A stretch of 63,000 bases of DNA. Origin: an uncultured Rhodospirillales bacterium (GTDB taxonomy: Bacteria > Pseudomonadota > Alphaproteobacteria > Acetobacterales > Acetobacteraceae). The notes beneath the pieces were generated by a model. That model did not search any database. It saw nothing but the letters and a program-made list of their open reading frames with translations, and was not told the DNA's origin. This document shows, in pieces, positions 1-63,000 of this stretch (the first letter of the stretch is position 1; every line of letters starts with the position of its first letter). A program made the position numbers and the translations under genes. The stretch is from positions 1 to 63,000 of the forward strand of contig CAILMF010000018.1 in assembly GCA_903835235.1 (NCBI GenBank). The letters are read 5' to 3'.

Positions 1-112
1 ATTCCTACGCGTTACTCACCCGTCCGCCGCTGCCATTGCTGACCGCGCGACTTGCATGTGTTAAGCATTCCGCCAGCGTTCGCTCTGAGCCAGGATCAAA
101 CTCTCAGGTTCA
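1..112 (-). rRNA. rrs: 16S rRNA, 5' end (partial)
   Basis: Read on the minus strand this is the conserved start of bacterial 16S rRNA: it contains the universal forward-primer site AGAGTTTGATCCTGGCTCAG, then GAACGCTGGCGG, ACACATGCAAGTCG and GGGTGAGTAACGCG. The gene continues off the left edge, so only about 110 nt are present. The 5' end is placed about 8 nt before the AGAGTTTG motif by analogy with E. coli. The V1 stretch is short and the sequence style fits Acetobacteraceae (inference). Confidence 0.97.
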
Positions 113-3656: not shown

Positions 3657-3671
3657 GAACATATGCAGAAC
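3657..3671 (+). promoter_or_regulatory. LexA box (SOS operator) of the imuA-imuB-dnaE2 cassette
   Basis: GAACATATGCAGAAC is an exact match to the alphaproteobacterial LexA direct repeat GAAC-N7-GAAC. It lies 103 nt upstream of the imuA start. A possible -35 TTGACT (3635-3640) precedes it, and any -10 (AACATA/CATATG) would fall inside the box, so LexA binding would block transcription. This architecture is as expected for DNA-damage induction of ImuABC. Confidence 0.85.
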
Positions 3672-3774: not shown

Positions 3775-4581
3775 GTGACGCCCGCGCCGGAGGATACCCT
3801 GCCCGACCGGCCGCCGCTCGACCGGCCCGCGGTGCTGGCGGCGCTGCAGGCGCGCATCCGCCGGCTGGAACGCGGCGGCGCCACGGCCGGGGAGGTGGCG
3901 CCGATCCCGCTTTGCGAGGCGATCGACCGGCACCTGCCCGGCGGTGGCCTGGCCCGCGCCGGCGTGCATGAGGTGATGGCCGCCGACCCCGGCGCCGCCG
4001 CCGGCTTCTGCGCCATGGCGCTGGCCCGCACCGAGGGCACCGTGCTGTGGATTGCCGCCGAGCCGGATGCCTGGCCGCCCGGCCTGTCCCGCTTCGGCCT
4101 GGGCGCCGCCAACCTGGTGCTGGTGCAGGCCCGCCGCCCGGCCGATGCGCTCTGGGCCATGGAGGAGGCGCTGCGCTGCCCCGGCGTGGCCGGCGCCCTG
4201 CTGGTGCAGGCCGAGATCGACATGACCGCGGCCCGCCGGCTGCAATTGGCCGCCGAGGCCGGCGGCGCGCTGGGCCTGTTGCTGCGCCCGGATGCCGCGG
4301 CCGAGGCCGGCAGCCCGGCCGATACGCTGCGCCCGCGCGGCAGTGGCCAGGCGGCTTCCGTGGCGCTGACGCGCTGGCGGGTGGGCGCGCTGGCCGGCAG
4401 CGGCGGTGGCCGCCACGCCCTGGGCGACCCACGCTGGCAGTTGGAGCTGCTGCGCTGCCGCGGCGGCCAGCCGAGGGAATGGCAGGCCACCTGGCAGCCG
4501 GCCGCGGGGGAGTTGCGGGTGGAAGGCGCCGAGGAGGCCGAAGCCGAGTCCCGCCCCGCCCGCCGCCGGGTGCCGCGATGA
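3775..4581 (+). CDS. imuA: ImuA, RecA/SulA-like component of the mutasome
   Basis: Partner protein in the ImuA-ImuB-DnaE2 translesion synthesis system. It is 268 residues with the family's N-terminal helix (LAALQARIRRLE), the PL-CEAIDRHLPGGGLARAGVHEV block that precedes a degenerate RecA-like core, and no intact Walker A. Start: GTG at 3775 with GGGAGG 8 nt upstream. The stop overlaps the imuB ATG by 4 nt (ATGA), which implies translational coupling. In other alphaproteobacteria ImuA is needed for damage-induced mutagenesis. Expression is probably under the LexA box upstream. Confidence 0.9.
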   Translation: MTPAPEDTLPDRPPLDRPAVLAALQARIRRLERGGATAGEVAPIPLCEAIDRHLPGGGLARAGVHEVMAADPGAAAGFCAMALARTEGTVLWIAAEPDAWPPGLSRFGLGAANLVLVQARRPADALWAMEEALRCPGVAGALLVQAEIDMTAARRLQLAAEAGGALGLLLRPDAAAEAGSPADTLRPRGSGQAASVALTRWRVGALAGSGGGRHALGDPRWQLELLRCRGGQPREWQATWQPAAGELRVEGAEEAEAESRPARRRVPR

Positions 4582-6872
4582 GGCGCCGCTGCTGCCGCCC
4601 GCCCTCCCTGCTGGACGCGCGGCCGCCCCAGCCGGGGGATTTGTCCGAAACCAACGGCTTTGATTCTGCTGCCTTCATGGCCGGCGCTGCCCCGACCCCG
4701 CTGCCGGGCGCGCCGCCGCCCCAGCCGGGGGATTTGTCCGAAACCGACGGCTTTGATTCTGCTGCCTTCATGGCCGGCGCTGTCTCACCCCCGCTGCCTG
4801 GCGCGCCGCCGCCCCAGCCGGGGGATTTGTCCGAAACCGGCGGCTTTGCTTCCACGGCCTTCATGGCCGGCGCTGTCTCACTCCCGCCCTCACCAGGCCC
4901 GACGCCGGCGGGCCAGATCACCGCCGCCCCGGAGCCCGGCGCCACCTCCCTCGCCCTGGTCATGGCGGGCTACCTCGGCATGCAGCAGCCGGGGCCGGAT
5001 GGCGGCCAACGACCCCCCTTAGCCTTGGCCGGACCGCGCGGCACCCCGCGCCCCACCCCCGGCAGCCACTCTTTCACCGTCATGGCCGGGCCTGTCCCGG
5101 CCATCCACCTCCCCTCGCCCGCACCAACTCTCGTCGAGACCGCCCGCTCCCGCCCAACCCCGGCTTGGCCCGGCCTGCTCCCCGGCCCCCACGACCACCT
5201 CCCCACCGTCATGGCCGGGCCTGTCCCGGCCATCCACGCCCCCTCGCCCGCACCGGCCCCGATCAGAAAGGGCCGCCCCCTCCCAGCGCGCCCAGCCATC
5301 TCCTGGCCAGGCCCGGCCAGCCGCTCCGCTGCGCAACCCAACCTGGCCGGCCTCGCCGCGCCGGCTCACCGCGCGGCCACGCCCGCCGCCCCGCGCCGCA
5401 GCCTGGCGCTGCACCTGCCCTGGCTGGCGGCCGAGCGCCGCCGCATCGCCGGCCCCTGGGCCAGCTGGGAGGCGGAGCGCCAGCAGCGCCGCATCGTCGC
5501 GGTGGATGCCAAGGCCGCCGCCGCCGGCATCAGCCCGGGCCAGACCCTGGCGGATGCCCAGGCCATCCTGCCCGACCTCAGCGTGGAACCGGCCGAGCCG
5601 CTGGCCGACCTGGCCTGGCTGCGCCGCCTGGCGCTGTGGGCCAATACCGTCACGCCGCTGGCCGCGCCCAACCCGCCGGACGGGCTGCTGCTGGACATCA
5701 CCGGCGTGCCGCATCTGCATGGCGGGGAGCAGGCGCTGCTCAACAAGCTGGTGCAGCATCTGGCCCGCCTTGGCCTGACGGTACGCGCCGCCATCGCCGG
5801 CGCGCCCGCCGCCGCCGCCGCCCTGGCCCGCGCCGCGCCCGGCTGCATCGTCCCGCCCGGTGAGGAAGCCGCAGCCCTCACCCCCCTGCCGCTCTCGGCG
5901 CTGCGCTTGCCGCATGGCACCGCGACGGCGCTGCATCGGCTGGGGCTGCGCCAGGTGGGGGATGTACTGCGCCAGCCGCGCGGCCCGCTGGCCCGCCGCT
6001 TCGGCGCCGCGCTGACCCTGGCGCTGGACGCCGCCACCGGCCAGCACCCCACGCCGATCCAGCCGCTGCGCCCGCCCGCCGCCTTCCTCGCCAGCCGCGA
6101 ATTCCTGGAACCGCTGATCACCCGGGAAGCGCTGGATGCGGTGCTGGAGGTGCTGCTGGGCCAGCTCTGCCGCCAGCTGGCCGAGGCCGGCAAGGGCGCC
6201 CGCCGCCTGCTGCTGCTGGGCTTCCGGGTGGATGGCACCCTGCAGGCGCTGCACATCGGCACCGGCCTGCCGGCACGCGACCCGCGCCACTTCGCCCGGC
6301 TGTTCCAGCCCCGCATGGAAAAGCTGGAACCCGGCTTCGGCTTTGAGCGGCTGACGCTGGAGGCCCGCTTCGTCGAGGACCACGCCGCGCCGCAGAACAG
6401 CCTGCCCAGCCAGGGCGGCCCCTCCGCCGAAGCCCGGCAGGAAGCCCTGGCCGCGCTGCTGGACCGGCTTTCCCAGCGCCTGCCGGTCTGGCGGCTGGAG
6501 CCGCGGGAAAGCCACATCCCCGAACGCGCGGTGCTGAAGCGCGACCCCTTCGCGCCCATTGCCGGCGCCGCCTGGTCCGGCCCACCCCGCCCGCTGCGCC
6601 TGCTGCGCCGCCCCCTGGCCTTGCAGGTAACGGCCCCGCTGCCGGACGAACCGCCCATCCAGCTGCGCCATGGCAGCCGGGTATGGCGGGTGCAGCGCGC
6701 CGAGGGGCCGGAGCGGATCGAGCCGGAATGGTGGCGCCCCGGCCCGCACCCGCCCTTCCGCGACTATTATAGGGTGGAGCTGACCAGCGGCGCCCGGCTC
6801 TGGGTTTGCCGCAGCGGCGCGGTGGTGCCGGGCGAAACCGCCCGCTGGTGGCTGCATGGCCGGTTCGAGTGA
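4578..6872 (+). CDS. imuB: ImuB, Y-family polymerase-like protein with a repeat-built N-terminal extension
   Basis: Catalytically dead Y-family homologue that links DnaE2 to the beta clamp and ImuA. The recognisable core starts near residue 273 (SLALHLPWLAAERRR) and shows the ImuB blocks AVDAKAAAAGISPGQTLADA, LLLDITGVPHLHGG (the DITG site) and an LxL-HGTATALHRLGLRQVGDVL helix-hairpin-helix region. The core is about 490 residues, normal for the family. The first ~270 residues are abnormal: three 31-residue tandem repeats (93 bp each) and two 'MAGPVPAIH' segments encoded by half-REP elements, all in frame and Pro/Ala-rich. The start is taken as ATG 4578 because it overlaps the imuA stop; no plausible start lies next to the core. 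The last 17 nt overlap dnaE2. Confidence 0.85.
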   Translation: MRRRCCRPPSLLDARPPQPGDLSETNGFDSAAFMAGAAPTPLPGAPPPQPGDLSETDGFDSAAFMAGAVSPPLPGAPPPQPGDLSETGGFASTAFMAGAVSLPPSPGPTPAGQITAAPEPGATSLALVMAGYLGMQQPGPDGGQRPPLALAGPRGTPRPTPGSHSFTVMAGPVPAIHLPSPAPTLVETARSRPTPAWPGLLPGPHDHLPTVMAGPVPAIHAPSPAPAPIRKGRPLPARPAISWPGPASRSAAQPNLAGLAAPAHRAATPAAPRRSLALHLPWLAAERRRIAGPWASWEAERQQRRIVAVDAKAAAAGISPGQTLADAQAILPDLSVEPAEPLADLAWLRRLALWANTVTPLAAPNPPDGLLLDITGVPHLHGGEQALLNKLVQHLARLGLTVRAAIAGAPAAAAALARAAPGCIVPPGEEAAALTPLPLSALRLPHGTATALHRLGLRQVGDVLRQPRGPLARRFGAALTLALDAATGQHPTPIQPLRPPAAFLASREFLEPLITREALDAVLEVLLGQLCRQLAEAGKGARRLLLLGFRVDGTLQALHIGTGLPARDPRHFARLFQPRMEKLEPGFGFERLTLEARFVEDHAAPQNSLPSQGGPSAEARQEALAALLDRLSQRLPVWRLEPRESHIPERAVLKRDPFAPIAGAAWSGPPRPLRLLRRPLALQVTAPLPDEPPIQLRHGSRVWRVQRAEGPERIEPEWWRPGPHPPFRDYYRVELTSGARLWVCRSGAVVPGETARWWLHGRFE
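4608..4886 (+). repeat. Three tandem 93-bp repeats inside imuB
   Basis: Three copies of a 93-bp unit begin at 4608, 4701 and 4794. Each contains GGGGATTTGTCCGAAACC (4635, 4728, 4821), then a ctttgattctgctgcc-like block and ttcatggccggcgctg. As 93 is a multiple of 3, each unit adds 31 residues (core PPQPGDLSET-GFDSAAFMAGA). Copies 2 and 3 differ at a few positions, so the array is not brand new. The same 18-nt motif recurs upstream of yifB at 41 kb. Confidence 0.93.
5079..5237 (+). repeat. Two half-REP elements inside imuB, 129 nt apart
   Basis: The segment gtcatggccgggcctgtccc and its continuation ggccatccac occur at 5079-5107 and 5208-5236. Each is the reverse complement of the right arm of the REP palindrome at 62757-62837, with about one mismatch over 28 nt. 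In the imuB frame each reads VMAGPVPAIH. The 129-nt spacing (43 codons) keeps the frame open. Such palindromic elements are normally intergenic, so their presence inside a gene is unusual. Confidence 0.85.
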
Positions 6873-9800
6873 CTTCGCCGAACTCGGCGCCCAATCCAAC
6901 TTCAGCTTCCTGGAGGGCGCTTCCCACCCGCAGGAACTGGCCGCCCAGGCCCATGCCCTGGGCCATGCGGCACTGGGCATTGCCGACCGCAACTCCTTCG
7001 CCGGCCTGGTGCGCGGCCATGTCGCGGCCAAGCAGGCGGGGCTGCGCTTCGTCCCCGGCGCCCGGGTTTGCCTGCCGGATGGCAGCGACTACCTGGCCTG
7101 GCCGACCGACCGCACCGCCTATGGCCGGCTCTCGGAATTGCTTTCCCAGGGCCGCATGCACGCGCCGAAGGGGGAATGCCACATTTCCCGGGAAGACCTG
7201 GTGGCCCATGCGGAAGGCCTGGTCCTGGCCCGGCTGCCGCCGGAAGCCCTCGACGACGCCTTCGCCCAACGCCTGCGGCAGGACGCCGCCGCCTTGCGCC
7301 CCCGCCTGGCGCTGCCCCTGTTCTGCGCCGTGCAGCATCGCTTCCGCGGCAACGACCGGGACCGGCTGGACCAGCTGGCCGCCATCGCCGCCGCCGCCCG
7401 CGCCCCGCTGCTGGCCGCCGGGCAATGCCGCTACCACCACCCGGCCCGCCGCCGCCTGGCCGATGTGATCAGCGCCATCCGCCTCGGCCGCACTGTCGAT
7501 ACGCTGGGCCTGGCCGCCCAGGCCAATGCCGAGGCGCATCTGAAGCCGGCCGCCGAGATGCTCCGCCTGTTCCGCGGCCATGAGCAGGCCGTGACCAACA
7601 CGCTGAAGGTCGTGGCCGCCTGCCGCTTCGCCATGACCGACCTGGCCTATGAATACCCGGATGAAATCCTCGACCCCGGCCTGACCCCGCAGCAAACCCT
7701 GGAACGCCGGGTGGAGGAAGCGCTGCGCCAGCGCTGGCCGGAGGGGATCAGCGAGAAGATCCGCGCCACCGTCGGCCATGAACTCGCGCTGGTGGAGCAG
7801 CTCGGCTACGCGCCCTATTTCCTGACGGTGCATGAGATCGTGCGCTTCGCCGCCAGCGTCGGCATCCTCTGCCAGGGGCGCGGCTCGGCGGCCAACTCGG
7901 CGCTCTGCTACATCCTCGGCATCACCGCGGTGCCGCCGGACAAGCACGACATGCTGTTCGCCCGCTTCATCAGCGCGGCGCGGGACGAGCCCCCCGACAT
8001 CGACGTGGATTTCGAGCATGAGCGCCGCGAGGAGGTGATCCAGCACATCTACCAGCGCTATGGCCGGGACCGCGCCGCCATCGCCGCCACCGTCATCCGT
8101 TACCGGGAACGCAGCGCCATCCGCGAGGTCGGCAAGGCGATGGGGCTGAGTGAGGACATCACCGCCCGCCTGGCCAAATCGGTCTGGAGCGCCGGGCAGC
8201 GCAGCCTGGCCGAGATGGCCGCCGAGCAGGGGCTGGACCTCAACGACCCCCGCCTGGCGATGACCTGCGAGTTGACCGAGGACCTCGTCGGCTTCCCGCG
8301 CCACCTGGCCACCCATGTCGGCGGCTTCGTGATCACCCGCGGCAAGCTGACGCAGCTGGCCATCGTCACCAAGGCGGCGATGCAGGACCGCCACACCATT
8401 GAATGGGACAAGGACGATATCGAGGCGCTGAAGATCCTGAAGGTGGATGTGCTGGGCCTGGGGATGCTCAGCTGCATCCGCCGCTGCTTTGGCCTGCTGG
8501 ATCAGGGGCTTGCGCTGGCCAGCGTGCCGCAGGACGACCGCGCCACCTATGCCATGCTGCGCCGAGCCGACAGCCTGGGCGTCTTCCAGGTGGAAAGCCG
8601 GGCGCAGATGAACATGCTGCCGCGGCTGCAACCCACCTGCTTCCGCGACCTCTGCGTGGAGGTCGCCATCGTCCGCCCCGGCCCGATCCAGGGCGACATG
8701 GTCCACCCCTATCTGCGCCGCAAGAATGGCGAGGAGGAGGTCACCTACCCCTCCCCGGAACTGAAGCGCGTGCTGGAAAAGACGCTGGGCGTGCCGCTGT
8801 TCCAGGAACAGGCCATGCAAATCGCCATCGTCGGCGCCGGCTTCAGCCCGGAGCGCGCGGACCAGTTGCGCCGCGCCATGGCCACCTTCCGCAACACCGG
8901 CACCATCTGGAATTTCCAGCAGGATTTTGTCGGAGGCATGCTGGCCAATGGCTACACCGCCGAATTCGCCGAGCGCTGCTTCAAACAAATAGAGGGCTTC
9001 GGCACCTATGGCTTCCCCGAGAGCCACGCCATCGCCTTCGCCTACCTGGTCTATGTCTCGGCCTGGCTGAAATGCCACTACCCCGGCGCCTTCGCCTGCG
9101 CGCTGCTGAACAGCCAGCCCATGGGTTTCTACGCCCCGGCCCAGATCATCCGCGACGCCCGCGACCACGGCGTGACGGTGCTGCCGGCGGATGCCCGGTA
9201 CAGCGACTGGGACAGCACGTTGGAGAACGGCGCGCTGCGGCTGGGGCTGCGGCTGGTGCAGGGGCTTTCCGCTGATGCCGGCGCCCGCATCATGGCGGCA
9301 CGCCCGGCCACGTCACTGGAAGACCTGGCCCGCCGCGCCGGGCTGGACCGCGGCAGCCTGAGCCAGTTGGCGGAAGCCGATGCCTGCCGCGGCTTCGGCC
9401 TCAACCGCCGCGCCGCGCTATGGGCTGCCGCCGCCTTCGAGGCGCCGGCGCCGCTGGCAGCCGAGGTGGTGGAACCCGGGGCGGCGCTGCCCCGCGCCAC
9501 CGCCGGCGAACAGACCGTGCTGGACTACACCAGCACCGGCCTGACCCTGCGCCACCATCCGCTGGCGCTGCTGCGCCCGCGGTTGGGGCCGACCGACACG
9601 CGCACCCTTGCCCGCGCGCCGCAAGGAAAATGGCTGCGCCTGCCCGGCCTGGTGCTGGTGCGCCAGCGCCCCGGCAGCGCCAAGGGCGTGGTGTTCTTTA
9701 CCGTGGAGGATGAATGGGGCACCGCCAACCTGGTGCTCTACCCCAGCGTCGCCCAGGAATTCCGCGCCGTGGTGGTGACGGCCCGGCTGGTGATCGCGGA

Positions 9801-10014
9801 AGGCCGGGTGGAGCGGCACCAGGCTGCGATTCCGATCATCCACCTGCTGGTGCGCAAGCTGCACGATGCGTCGGGCCTGCTGGCCAGCCTGCACGCCACC
9901 GAGGCCGACCCGCTGCTCCGCAGCCTGGCCCGCGCGGACGAGGTCAACCGGCCGGTCCTGCGCAGCGAACCCGGCGTGCGACTGAACCTGCCGCCCAGCC
10001 GGGATTTTCATTAG
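6856..10014 (+). CDS. dnaE2: DnaE2 (ImuC), error-prone DNA polymerase III alpha
   Basis: C-family polymerase that copies past lesions in the SOS mutasome. The 1052-residue protein has an N-terminal PHP domain (AELGAQSNFSFLEGASHPQEL), the palm with catalytic carboxylates in PPDIDVDFEH (near residues 380-382) and KVDVLGL (near 530), the nucleotide-binding block CQGRGSAANS, the VRPGPIQGDMVHPYL motif, and a C-terminal OB-fold (VVFFTVEDEWGTANLVLYP). It lacks the tau-binding tail of replicative DnaE1, as usual for DnaE2. It overlaps imuB by 17 nt and is the last gene of the LexA-controlled cassette. Confidence 0.95.
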   Translation: MAGSSDFAELGAQSNFSFLEGASHPQELAAQAHALGHAALGIADRNSFAGLVRGHVAAKQAGLRFVPGARVCLPDGSDYLAWPTDRTAYGRLSELLSQGRMHAPKGECHISREDLVAHAEGLVLARLPPEALDDAFAQRLRQDAAALRPRLALPLFCAVQHRFRGNDRDRLDQLAAIAAAARAPLLAAGQCRYHHPARRRLADVISAIRLGRTVDTLGLAAQANAEAHLKPAAEMLRLFRGHEQAVTNTLKVVAACRFAMTDLAYEYPDEILDPGLTPQQTLERRVEEALRQRWPEGISEKIRATVGHELALVEQLGYAPYFLTVHEIVRFAASVGILCQGRGSAANSALCYILGITAVPPDKHDMLFARFISAARDEPPDIDVDFEHERREEVIQHIYQRYGRDRAAIAATVIRYRERSAIREVGKAMGLSEDITARLAKSVWSAGQRSLAEMAAEQGLDLNDPRLAMTCELTEDLVGFPRHLATHVGGFVITRGKLTQLAIVTKAAMQDRHTIEWDKDDIEALKILKVDVLGLGMLSCIRRCFGLLDQGLALASVPQDDRATYAMLRRADSLGVFQVESRAQMNMLPRLQPTCFRDLCVEVAIVRPGPIQGDMVHPYLRRKNGEEEVTYPSPELKRVLEKTLGVPLFQEQAMQIAIVGAGFSPERADQLRRAMATFRNTGTIWNFQQDFVGGMLANGYTAEFAERCFKQIEGFGTYGFPESHAIAFAYLVYVSAWLKCHYPGAFACALLNSQPMGFYAPAQIIRDARDHGVTVLPADARYSDWDSTLENGALRLGLRLVQGLSADAGARIMAARPATSLEDLARRAGLDRGSLSQLAEADACRGFGLNRRAALWAAAAFEAPAPLAAEVVEPGAALPRATAGEQTVLDYTSTGLTLRHHPLALLRPRLGPTDTRTLARAPQGKWLRLPGLVLVRQRPGSAKGVVFFTVEDEWGTANLVLYPSVAQEFRAVVVTARLVIAEGRVERHQAAIPIIHLLVRKLHDASGLLASLHATEADPLLRSLARADEVNRPVLRSEPGVRLNLPPSRDFH

Positions 10015-41073: not shown

Positions 41074-41113
41074 ATTTGTCCGAAACCGGCGGGCCGGGGA
41101 TTTGTCCGAAACC
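41074..41113 (+). repeat. Two copies of the 14-18-nt imuB motif upstream of yifB
   Basis: ATTTGTCCGAAACC occurs at 41074-41087 and, as the full GGGGATTTGTCCGAAACC, at 41096-41113. The 18-mer is identical to the one in each 93-bp unit of imuB, more than 36 kb away. It lies in the 157-nt gap before yifB, just ahead of the start. It may be a protein-binding site or a mobile short repeat. Confidence 0.8.
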
Positions 41114-62752: not shown

Positions 62753-62756
62753 AAAC

Positions 62757-62837
62757 GTCATGCGCGGGCTTGTCCCGCGTATCCACGCCTGCCCCGCTTG
62801 GCACGGCGTGGATGGCCGGGACAAGCCCGGCCATGAC
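62757..62837. repeat. REP palindrome, about 81 bp
   Basis: A long inverted repeat: GTCATG...GGCTTGTCCCG...ATCCACGCC on the left pairs with GGCGTGGAT...CGGGACAAGCC...CATGAC on the right around about 15 nt of loop. The right arm is nearly identical (inverted) to the two half-elements inside imuB at 5.1-5.2 kb. Such elements are typical intergenic REP sequences; several fragments of one type within a window suggest a multicopy family. Confidence 0.88.
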
Positions 62838-62850
62838 GGGTTTGAAGGGC

Positions 62851-63000
62851 GTGCGCTATCCGCGCCGATAGACTCGTGCGCTATCCGCGGCGATAGACCC
62901 GTGCGCTATCCGCGGCGATAGACCCGTGCGCTATCCGCGGCGATAGACCCGTGCGCTATCCGCGGCGATAGACCCGTGCGCTATCCGCGGCGATAGACCC
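62851..63000 (+). repeat. 25-bp tandem palindromic repeat array, at least six copies
   Basis: Units begin at 62851, 62876, 62901, 62926, 62951 and 62976 and are identical except the first, which differs at two positions. Each unit contains CTATC (6-10), CGCGGC (11-16) and GATAG (17-21), an inverted repeat around CCGCGG. There are no spacers, so it is not CRISPR-like. It runs to the window edge and its true length is unknown. The period of 25 rules out coding use as an in-frame repeat. The remaining part of 62661-63000 has no gene. Confidence 0.92.

Follow-up and report, generated by a model that had tools for sequence, protein, structure and literature searches.

Dispersed repeats of two families within the likely translated N-terminal extension of ImuB in an uncultured member of the Acetobacteraceae

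Results

The imuA-imuB-dnaE2 locus

The DNA analyzed here (the window) comprises the first 63,000 nt of contig CAILMF010000018.1 from an uncultured Rhodospirillales bacterium of the family Acetobacteraceae (GenBank assembly GCA_903835235.1). It harbors the genes imuA, imuB, and dnaE2, and 273 codons (819 nt) of imuB lie between the ATG at 4578 and the conserved ImuB core, which starts at 5397. This confirmed the extension of about 270 residues described in an initial annotation made from the sequence of this DNA. The extension contains three 93-bp tandem repeats and two repetitive extragenic palindromic (REP) elements. Both belong to families that are found throughout the genome, mostly between genes, and the extension is likely translated together with ImuB. 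The features are listed in Table 1.

A homologous ImuB core within an imuA-imuB-dnaE2 operon was supported by the open reading frames (ORFs), by core searches, and by Pfam. Among three congeners the core showed 0.05 nonsynonymous (dN) and 0.18-0.20 synonymous (dS) substitutions per site. Since the core is under purifying selection, ImuB is retained, and the low dN/dS ratio suggests that its function is kept. The GAAC-N7-GAAC motif, which we take to be a LexA box on the basis of the alphaproteobacterial LexA consensus, has a single match in the window, while at least one match also occurred in 31 of 100 shuffles of the window. It is likewise present upstream of imuA in two congener loci, L031 (position 3171) and L032 (position 3508). 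A fragment of a 16S rRNA gene is located at the contig end (positions 1-111, minus strand; Rfam).

Table 1. Features of the imuB leader and of the surrounding locus (window coordinates).
Feature	Position	Strand	Evidence or remark
Leader cap MRRRCCRPPSL	4578-4610	+	Leader comparisons across loci
Tandem array, 3 x 93 bp	4598-4876	+	Tandem Repeats Finder score 454; second repeat finder agrees
13-mer TTTGTCCGAAACC, copy 1	4640-4652	+	Dispersed; reads LSET
13-mer TTTGTCCGAAACC, copy 2	4733-4745	+	Dispersed
13-mer TTTGTCCGAAACC, copy 3	4826-4838	+	Dispersed
Leader stretch without strong repeats	4877-5077	+	
CGTC-type REP 1	5078-5107	+	Reads VMAGPVPAIH; repeat finder, genome pattern search, fold
CGTC-type REP 2	5207-5236	+	Reads VMAGPVPAIH; repeat finder, genome pattern search
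Spacer from REP 2 to core	5237-5396	+	No in-frame ATG, GTG, or TTG
Conserved ImuB core	5397-6869	+	Core searches in relatives, alignment, dN/dS
Putative clamp-binding motif, QNSLPS, degenerate	6393-6410	+	Placed by position relative to PMC11791113
imuB	4578-6872	+	Start overlaps imuA stop (ATGA); Pfam IMS, residues 304-413, E 6e-07
imuA	3775-4581	+	ORF; tblastn matches at equivalent position in relatives
dnaE2	6856-10014	+	ORF; named from sequence and gene order, not from a family search
Presumed SOS (LexA) box upstream of imuA	3657-3671	+	Pattern match, GAAC-N7-GAAC

Repeats within the imuB leader

The three 93-bp tandem repeats of the initial annotation were recovered by two repeat finders. 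Units 2 and 3 have 91% and 84% identity to unit 1, and the peptides PPQPGDLSET and AFMAGA are identical in all three units, unit 1 reading RPPQPGDLSET. The differences at codon positions 1/2/3 were 3/4/1, 4/6/5, and 3/2/4 for the three pairs of units, and thus no synonymous excess was found. Neither the 93-bp unit (both strands) nor three stretches of the array folded better than shuffled sequences (z values of 1.2, 1.3, 0.3, -0.9, and 1.4), and we rejected the idea that the array is a structured RNA. The extension as a whole consists of 22% Pro, 17% Ala, and 11% Gly. It is therefore Pro/Ala-rich, as had been noted; that it is disordered, as also proposed, is a prediction from composition only.

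The palindromes at 5082-5104 and 5211-5233, identical and 23 nt long, have the same orientation and a spacing of 129 nt. The initial annotation had seen two palindromic elements here but took them for inverted half-REPs. Both turned out to be complete, with a CGTC tag (5078-5081 and 5207-5210), a stem of 9 bp, a loop of 5 nt, and a CCA tail, and match the definition of CGTC REPs in PMC3733652 (CGTC tag, stem of 8-9 bp, loop of 4-5 nt, CCA tail). REP 1 with its flanks (5072-5110) folded better than shuffled sequences (z = -3.3). The two REPs have 15 nt of the downstream flank in common and no significant upstream flank. Because of this mismatch of the flanks a clean in-frame duplication of 129 bp, one of the earlier proposals, is not supported, and an origin of the two REPs by a full duplication of this length was not established. 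The further suggestion that lengths divisible by 3 (93 and 129) are a sign of selection is weak, given the lack of a synonymous excess between the units.

Both repeat families are dispersed in the genome

The REP pattern with up to two mismatches has 20 copies in the genome, and the reversed control pattern has none. Genes were called by a simple and crude codon-score caller. By these calls all 18 REP copies outside imuB are located beyond genes, including the one at L119 (true locus position 164-189), and only the two imuB copies are intragenic. A Y1 (RAYT-type) transposase was not found in this genome. An inverted pair of REP-like palindromes is also present at window positions 62756-63000, followed by six 25-bp tandem copies (62850-63000) that extend to the contig end.

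The 13-mer TTTGTCCGAAACC has 38 exact copies in the genome (control: none), three of them in imuB, and the 93-bp unit has nine further partial matches beyond the array. A looser motif, TT[T/C]GTCCGAAA, was found 62 times, at 20 places and in imuB, a count that leaves out one 13-mer pair on contig 58. Of these copies 52 are outside called genes, mostly in irregularly spaced arrays (26 nt or more); imuB has 3, and five other genes together have 7. Since none of the 7 is closer than 138 nt to another copy, imuB is the only gene in which we saw a close array. On contig 1, an intergenic spot is 86% identical to the imuB unit over 50 nt. About fifteen intergenic spots of the TTTGTCCGAAACC family were seen, one of them within the window (41075-41113), where two copies lie 26 nt apart between two genes. 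We did not find a description of this family in a limited literature search by exact strings; the exact 13-mer string also occurs in two biosensor papers.

The exact 13-mer was found in 92 of the 397 Acetobacteraceae genomes drawn. Within the genus, six genomes contain 38, 20, 16, 10, 5, and 3 copies, and five genomes beyond it have 12 to 27. Low counts are uninformative, as the reversed control reached four in single listed genomes. In another genus (G103, locus L141, 934-1407) a repeat finder detected nine related copies in the gap between imuA and imuB, spaced by 38-41 or 78-80 nt, and the ATG of imuB (1396) sits within the last of them (TTCGTCCGA-ATG). This suggests that the imuA-imuB junction attracts or tolerates arrays of the 13-mer type on either side of the start codon.

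Leaders of ImuB in related genomes

Searches with the ImuB core gave matches for 43 of 60 relatives; within the genus 5 of 6 genomes had one, and within the family 284 of 397. We kept 80 of 131 named loci and read the upstream part for 18 of those 80; leaders were also read at 54 best-match loci and at another 40 matches. In the genus, G003 (L032) has a leader of 43 residues with one 13-mer, and G005 (L031, 3989-4387) has a leader of 133 residues with an altered unit (LSESRG) and one REP. The flanks of the G005 REP are not alike those in the window, and we rejected as established that it is the same insertion as one of the window REPs. The G005 leader also contains look-alike peptide stretches (AMLGHSGASRPD and VMAAHHGASRAD), unlike the window array, and the DNA repeat finder did not list these stretches as repeats. 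Only three residues precede the core in G001, G002 has no core match, and G004 is cut by the contig end. Both the cap and the first unit of the window leader are also present in the two congener leaders (43 and 133 residues), and over their first 73 nt the window and G005 leaders are 97% alike. The ImuB cores of this series (43, 133, and 273 leader residues) are about 92% identical.

In other genera leaders of 33-106 residues, cap included, open with RRRx[C/A]xPP. Comparison with relatives, which had been proposed as a check, showed shorter leaders with the same cap, and no capped leader that we read was longer than the 273 residues of the window. Twenty-four distinct leaders have R-[RHQ]-R at residues 2-4. 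All of them contain C6, 22 contain P8, and 23 contain P9, while the third positions of codons 3, 4, and 9 vary. Two of 26 distinct leaders (MSRRRAAHPP and MTRRRAAHPP), which lack the Cys, are outside this count. The search pattern itself imposed, in part, the residues R2-R4 and the AGG at codon 2; the fixed AGG and most of the conservation of R3 and R4 were therefore discarded. Cys was rejected as a general feature of the cap, since the RRRAAxPP leaders (L038, L041, L197, L199, and L210) have Ala instead. A clamp-like motif resembling LPLF in some leaders (a Neoroseomonas and Roseococcus) is not general and was set aside.

A long leader is not present in all ImuBs of the family. Nine of the 40 further loci are capped (34-106 residues), and in the other 31 (of L193-L232) only 2-28 residues precede the core; L007, L008, L009, L010, L012, L150, L161, and L162 are also near leaderless. 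Both types sometimes occur in one genome (G008: L006 capped, L216 not). A narrow REP pattern matched none of these 40 loci.

Evidence for translation of the extension

The frame from the ATG at 4578 to the core is free of stop codons, as the initial annotation had stated, and has the best codon score of the six frames. Between 5211 and 5502 there is no in-frame ATG, GTG, or TTG, while rarer start codons such as CTG are present. A start of imuB near 5395, named before as the outcome that would speak against an extended protein, is therefore unlikely. In L032, with its leader of 43 residues, possible starts up to the core are limited to the overlapping ATG and one TTG. Because of the shared cap with variation at third positions, the start-poor short leader of the congener, and the lack of ordinary starts between 5211 and 5502, translation of the extension together with ImuB is likely as judged from sequence. 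Both REPs are located entirely within the open frame, and barring initiation at a rarer codon such as CTG, REP 2 at least is predicted to be inside ImuB.

Several observations weigh against this reading and against the view that the repeats became protein. Openness of the frame is weak evidence when taken alone, as among 2000 dinucleotide shuffles of this region (819 nt) 20% were also stop-free in that frame. The extension has a codon score of about 0, versus 0.45 for the core. With no synonymous excess between the units, the residues that derive from the repeats show no visible constraint, the 93-bp array might be mis-sized in the assembly, and the gene caller missed the first 63 nt of imuB itself.

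Discussion

Origin of the extension and its effect on ImuB

We consider it likely that dispersed repeats enlarged a permissive, probably disordered N-terminal tether of ImuB in a nearly neutral way. The ancestral state, as seen in many ImuBs of the family, would be a short RRRx[C/A]xPP cap and a freely varying spacer, joined to the first core strand. This spacer would have gained, in the ancestor of the genus, one unit of the dispersed, mostly intergenic repeat with the 13-mer TTTGTCCGAAACC (LSET). The unit may then have been amplified to three 93-bp copies in the species of the window, and CGTC-type REPs would have entered further down the leader, giving 273 residues. Insertions and slippage that kept the frame could survive since the site is permissive and the elements are stop-free in the frame used. 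Translated with ImuB, the leader would most likely serve as a flexible tether of greater length, with a nearly neutral effect on the mutasome. The earlier idea of a repeat invasion turned into protein gained support from the distribution of both families and from the congener with 43 leader residues, which shows the likely earlier state. As the first 11 codons are the cap that is also found in other genera, the extension is not wholly derived from repeats, and one clean insertion was rejected because other genera share the cap and the congeners share the first unit.

The initial annotation had also suggested an effect on the interaction with the clamp or ImuA, which is not supported by our data. 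In mycobacterial ImuB the sites for the clamp and for ImuA' are C-terminal (PMC11791113), and by alignment the positions of these sites are present in the core of the window ImuB. The Gln of the clamp motif is unchanged in 13 of 13 aligned sequences and a Leu/Arg-rich stretch follows at the place expected for a RecA-NT motif; the sequence of the putative clamp motif is degenerate. PMC10421592 reports that N-terminally tagged EGFP-ImuB of Mycobacterium smegmatis kept induced mutagenesis, with UV survival like the wild type. Considering the missing synonymous excess, the C-terminal partner sites, and the intact mutagenesis with EGFP-ImuB, the extension is most likely near neutral for mutagenesis. 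The same source weighs against general neutrality, as EGFP-ImuB did not restore mitomycin tolerance, and by analogy an effect of the extension on damage tolerance is possible.

The extension might instead be translated rarely or for the most part not at all, with functional ImuB starting at an internal codon such as the ATG at 5082 or 5211. The extension has seven in-frame ATGs and a low codon score, and the REP survey (PMC3733652) warns that REPs close to the N-terminus in many cases lie outside the actual coding sequence. We regard this as unlikely, as the congener leader of 43 residues has no such internal ATG, the cap is common across genera with variation at third positions, and inspection by eye of the 20 nt preceding each of these two ATGs showed no evident ribosome-binding site. 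Even with the ATG at 5211 as the start, the REP 2 peptide would remain in ImuB. It is quite improbable that the extension was co-opted, with the units serving as short linear motifs for partner binding or shifting the balance between mutagenesis and damage tolerance. The identity of PPQPGDLSET and AFMAGA in the three units would fit such a role, and so would the separation of mutagenesis from mitomycin tolerance by N-terminal bulk on the M. smegmatis protein (PMC10421592). Against it stand the missing synonymous excess between the units, the changed unit of G005, and the distribution of the motif, which in a survey of 79 loci with imuB turned up in no copies other than those of the window and G003.

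The related array in L141, with units about 40 nt apart upstream of the ATG, would agree with an element of the imuA-imuB junction that acts as DNA or RNA, for example in translation coupling, and whose passage into protein is incidental. This is very improbable in view of the folding results, and 7 of 9 capped loci have no near-copy of the motif in the 1.15 kb fetched (L197 has one and L210 two). Least probable, and highly speculative, is a junction that acts as a hot spot for the TTTGTCCGAAACC repeat, which would settle there repeatedly, before the imuB start in one genus and behind it in another; in the latter, in-frame slippage, possibly during the error-prone synthesis by the mutasome itself, would tune the length of the ImuB leader and mutagenesis.

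Comparison with known systems

Enlargement of the tether by repeats, our preferred reading, belongs to a known type of event. Di Nocera et al. 2013 (PMC3733652) described intragenic REPs, many of them in replication and repair genes, naming DnaE2, UvrA, and RecBCD among others, and discussed neutral insertion in linkers and a mutator effect. In a literature search on intragenic palindromic repeats and DnaE2 this was the only paper found. ImuB is not mentioned in its main text, to which our check was confined, and a limited search revealed no paper on ImuB with an N-terminal extension. We concluded that a known kind of event is seen here in a new instance, made different by the second repeat family and the series of leader lengths; ImuB as a REP-tagged protein and the 13-mer family may be new. 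With it ImuB would join the repair proteins already published as REP-tagged, and attention is drawn to a dispersed repeat family of which a search by exact strings retrieved no description. The leaders of 43, 133, and 273 residues offer a series for intergenic repeats becoming protein in a gene for induced mutagenesis, and also a natural test of how N-terminal bulk affects the mutasome, a question left by the EGFP-ImuB result.

In operon order, core, SOS box, and the positions of the C-terminal partner sites the locus resembles the ImuA/ImuA'-ImuB-DnaE2 mutasome, while the capped N-terminal leader is unlike known mutasome ImuB. As in Rickettsia palindromic elements (RPE; PMC3733652), palindromic DNA would be read in frame as protein, and orthologs without the insertion exist, such as L032. 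RPE decorate many genes; here one gene is affected, at its N-terminal leader. The REPs resemble published CGTC-tagged REPs (same source) in tag, 9-bp stem, 5-nt loop, CCA tail, mostly intergenic location, and the apparent lack of a RAYT, and differ from them by two copies in one gene in the same orientation. Like the intragenic REPs of that survey they are located in an error-prone repair gene. What sets this case apart from those REPs is that a second, unrelated repeat family takes part and that congener leaders form a series of lengths.

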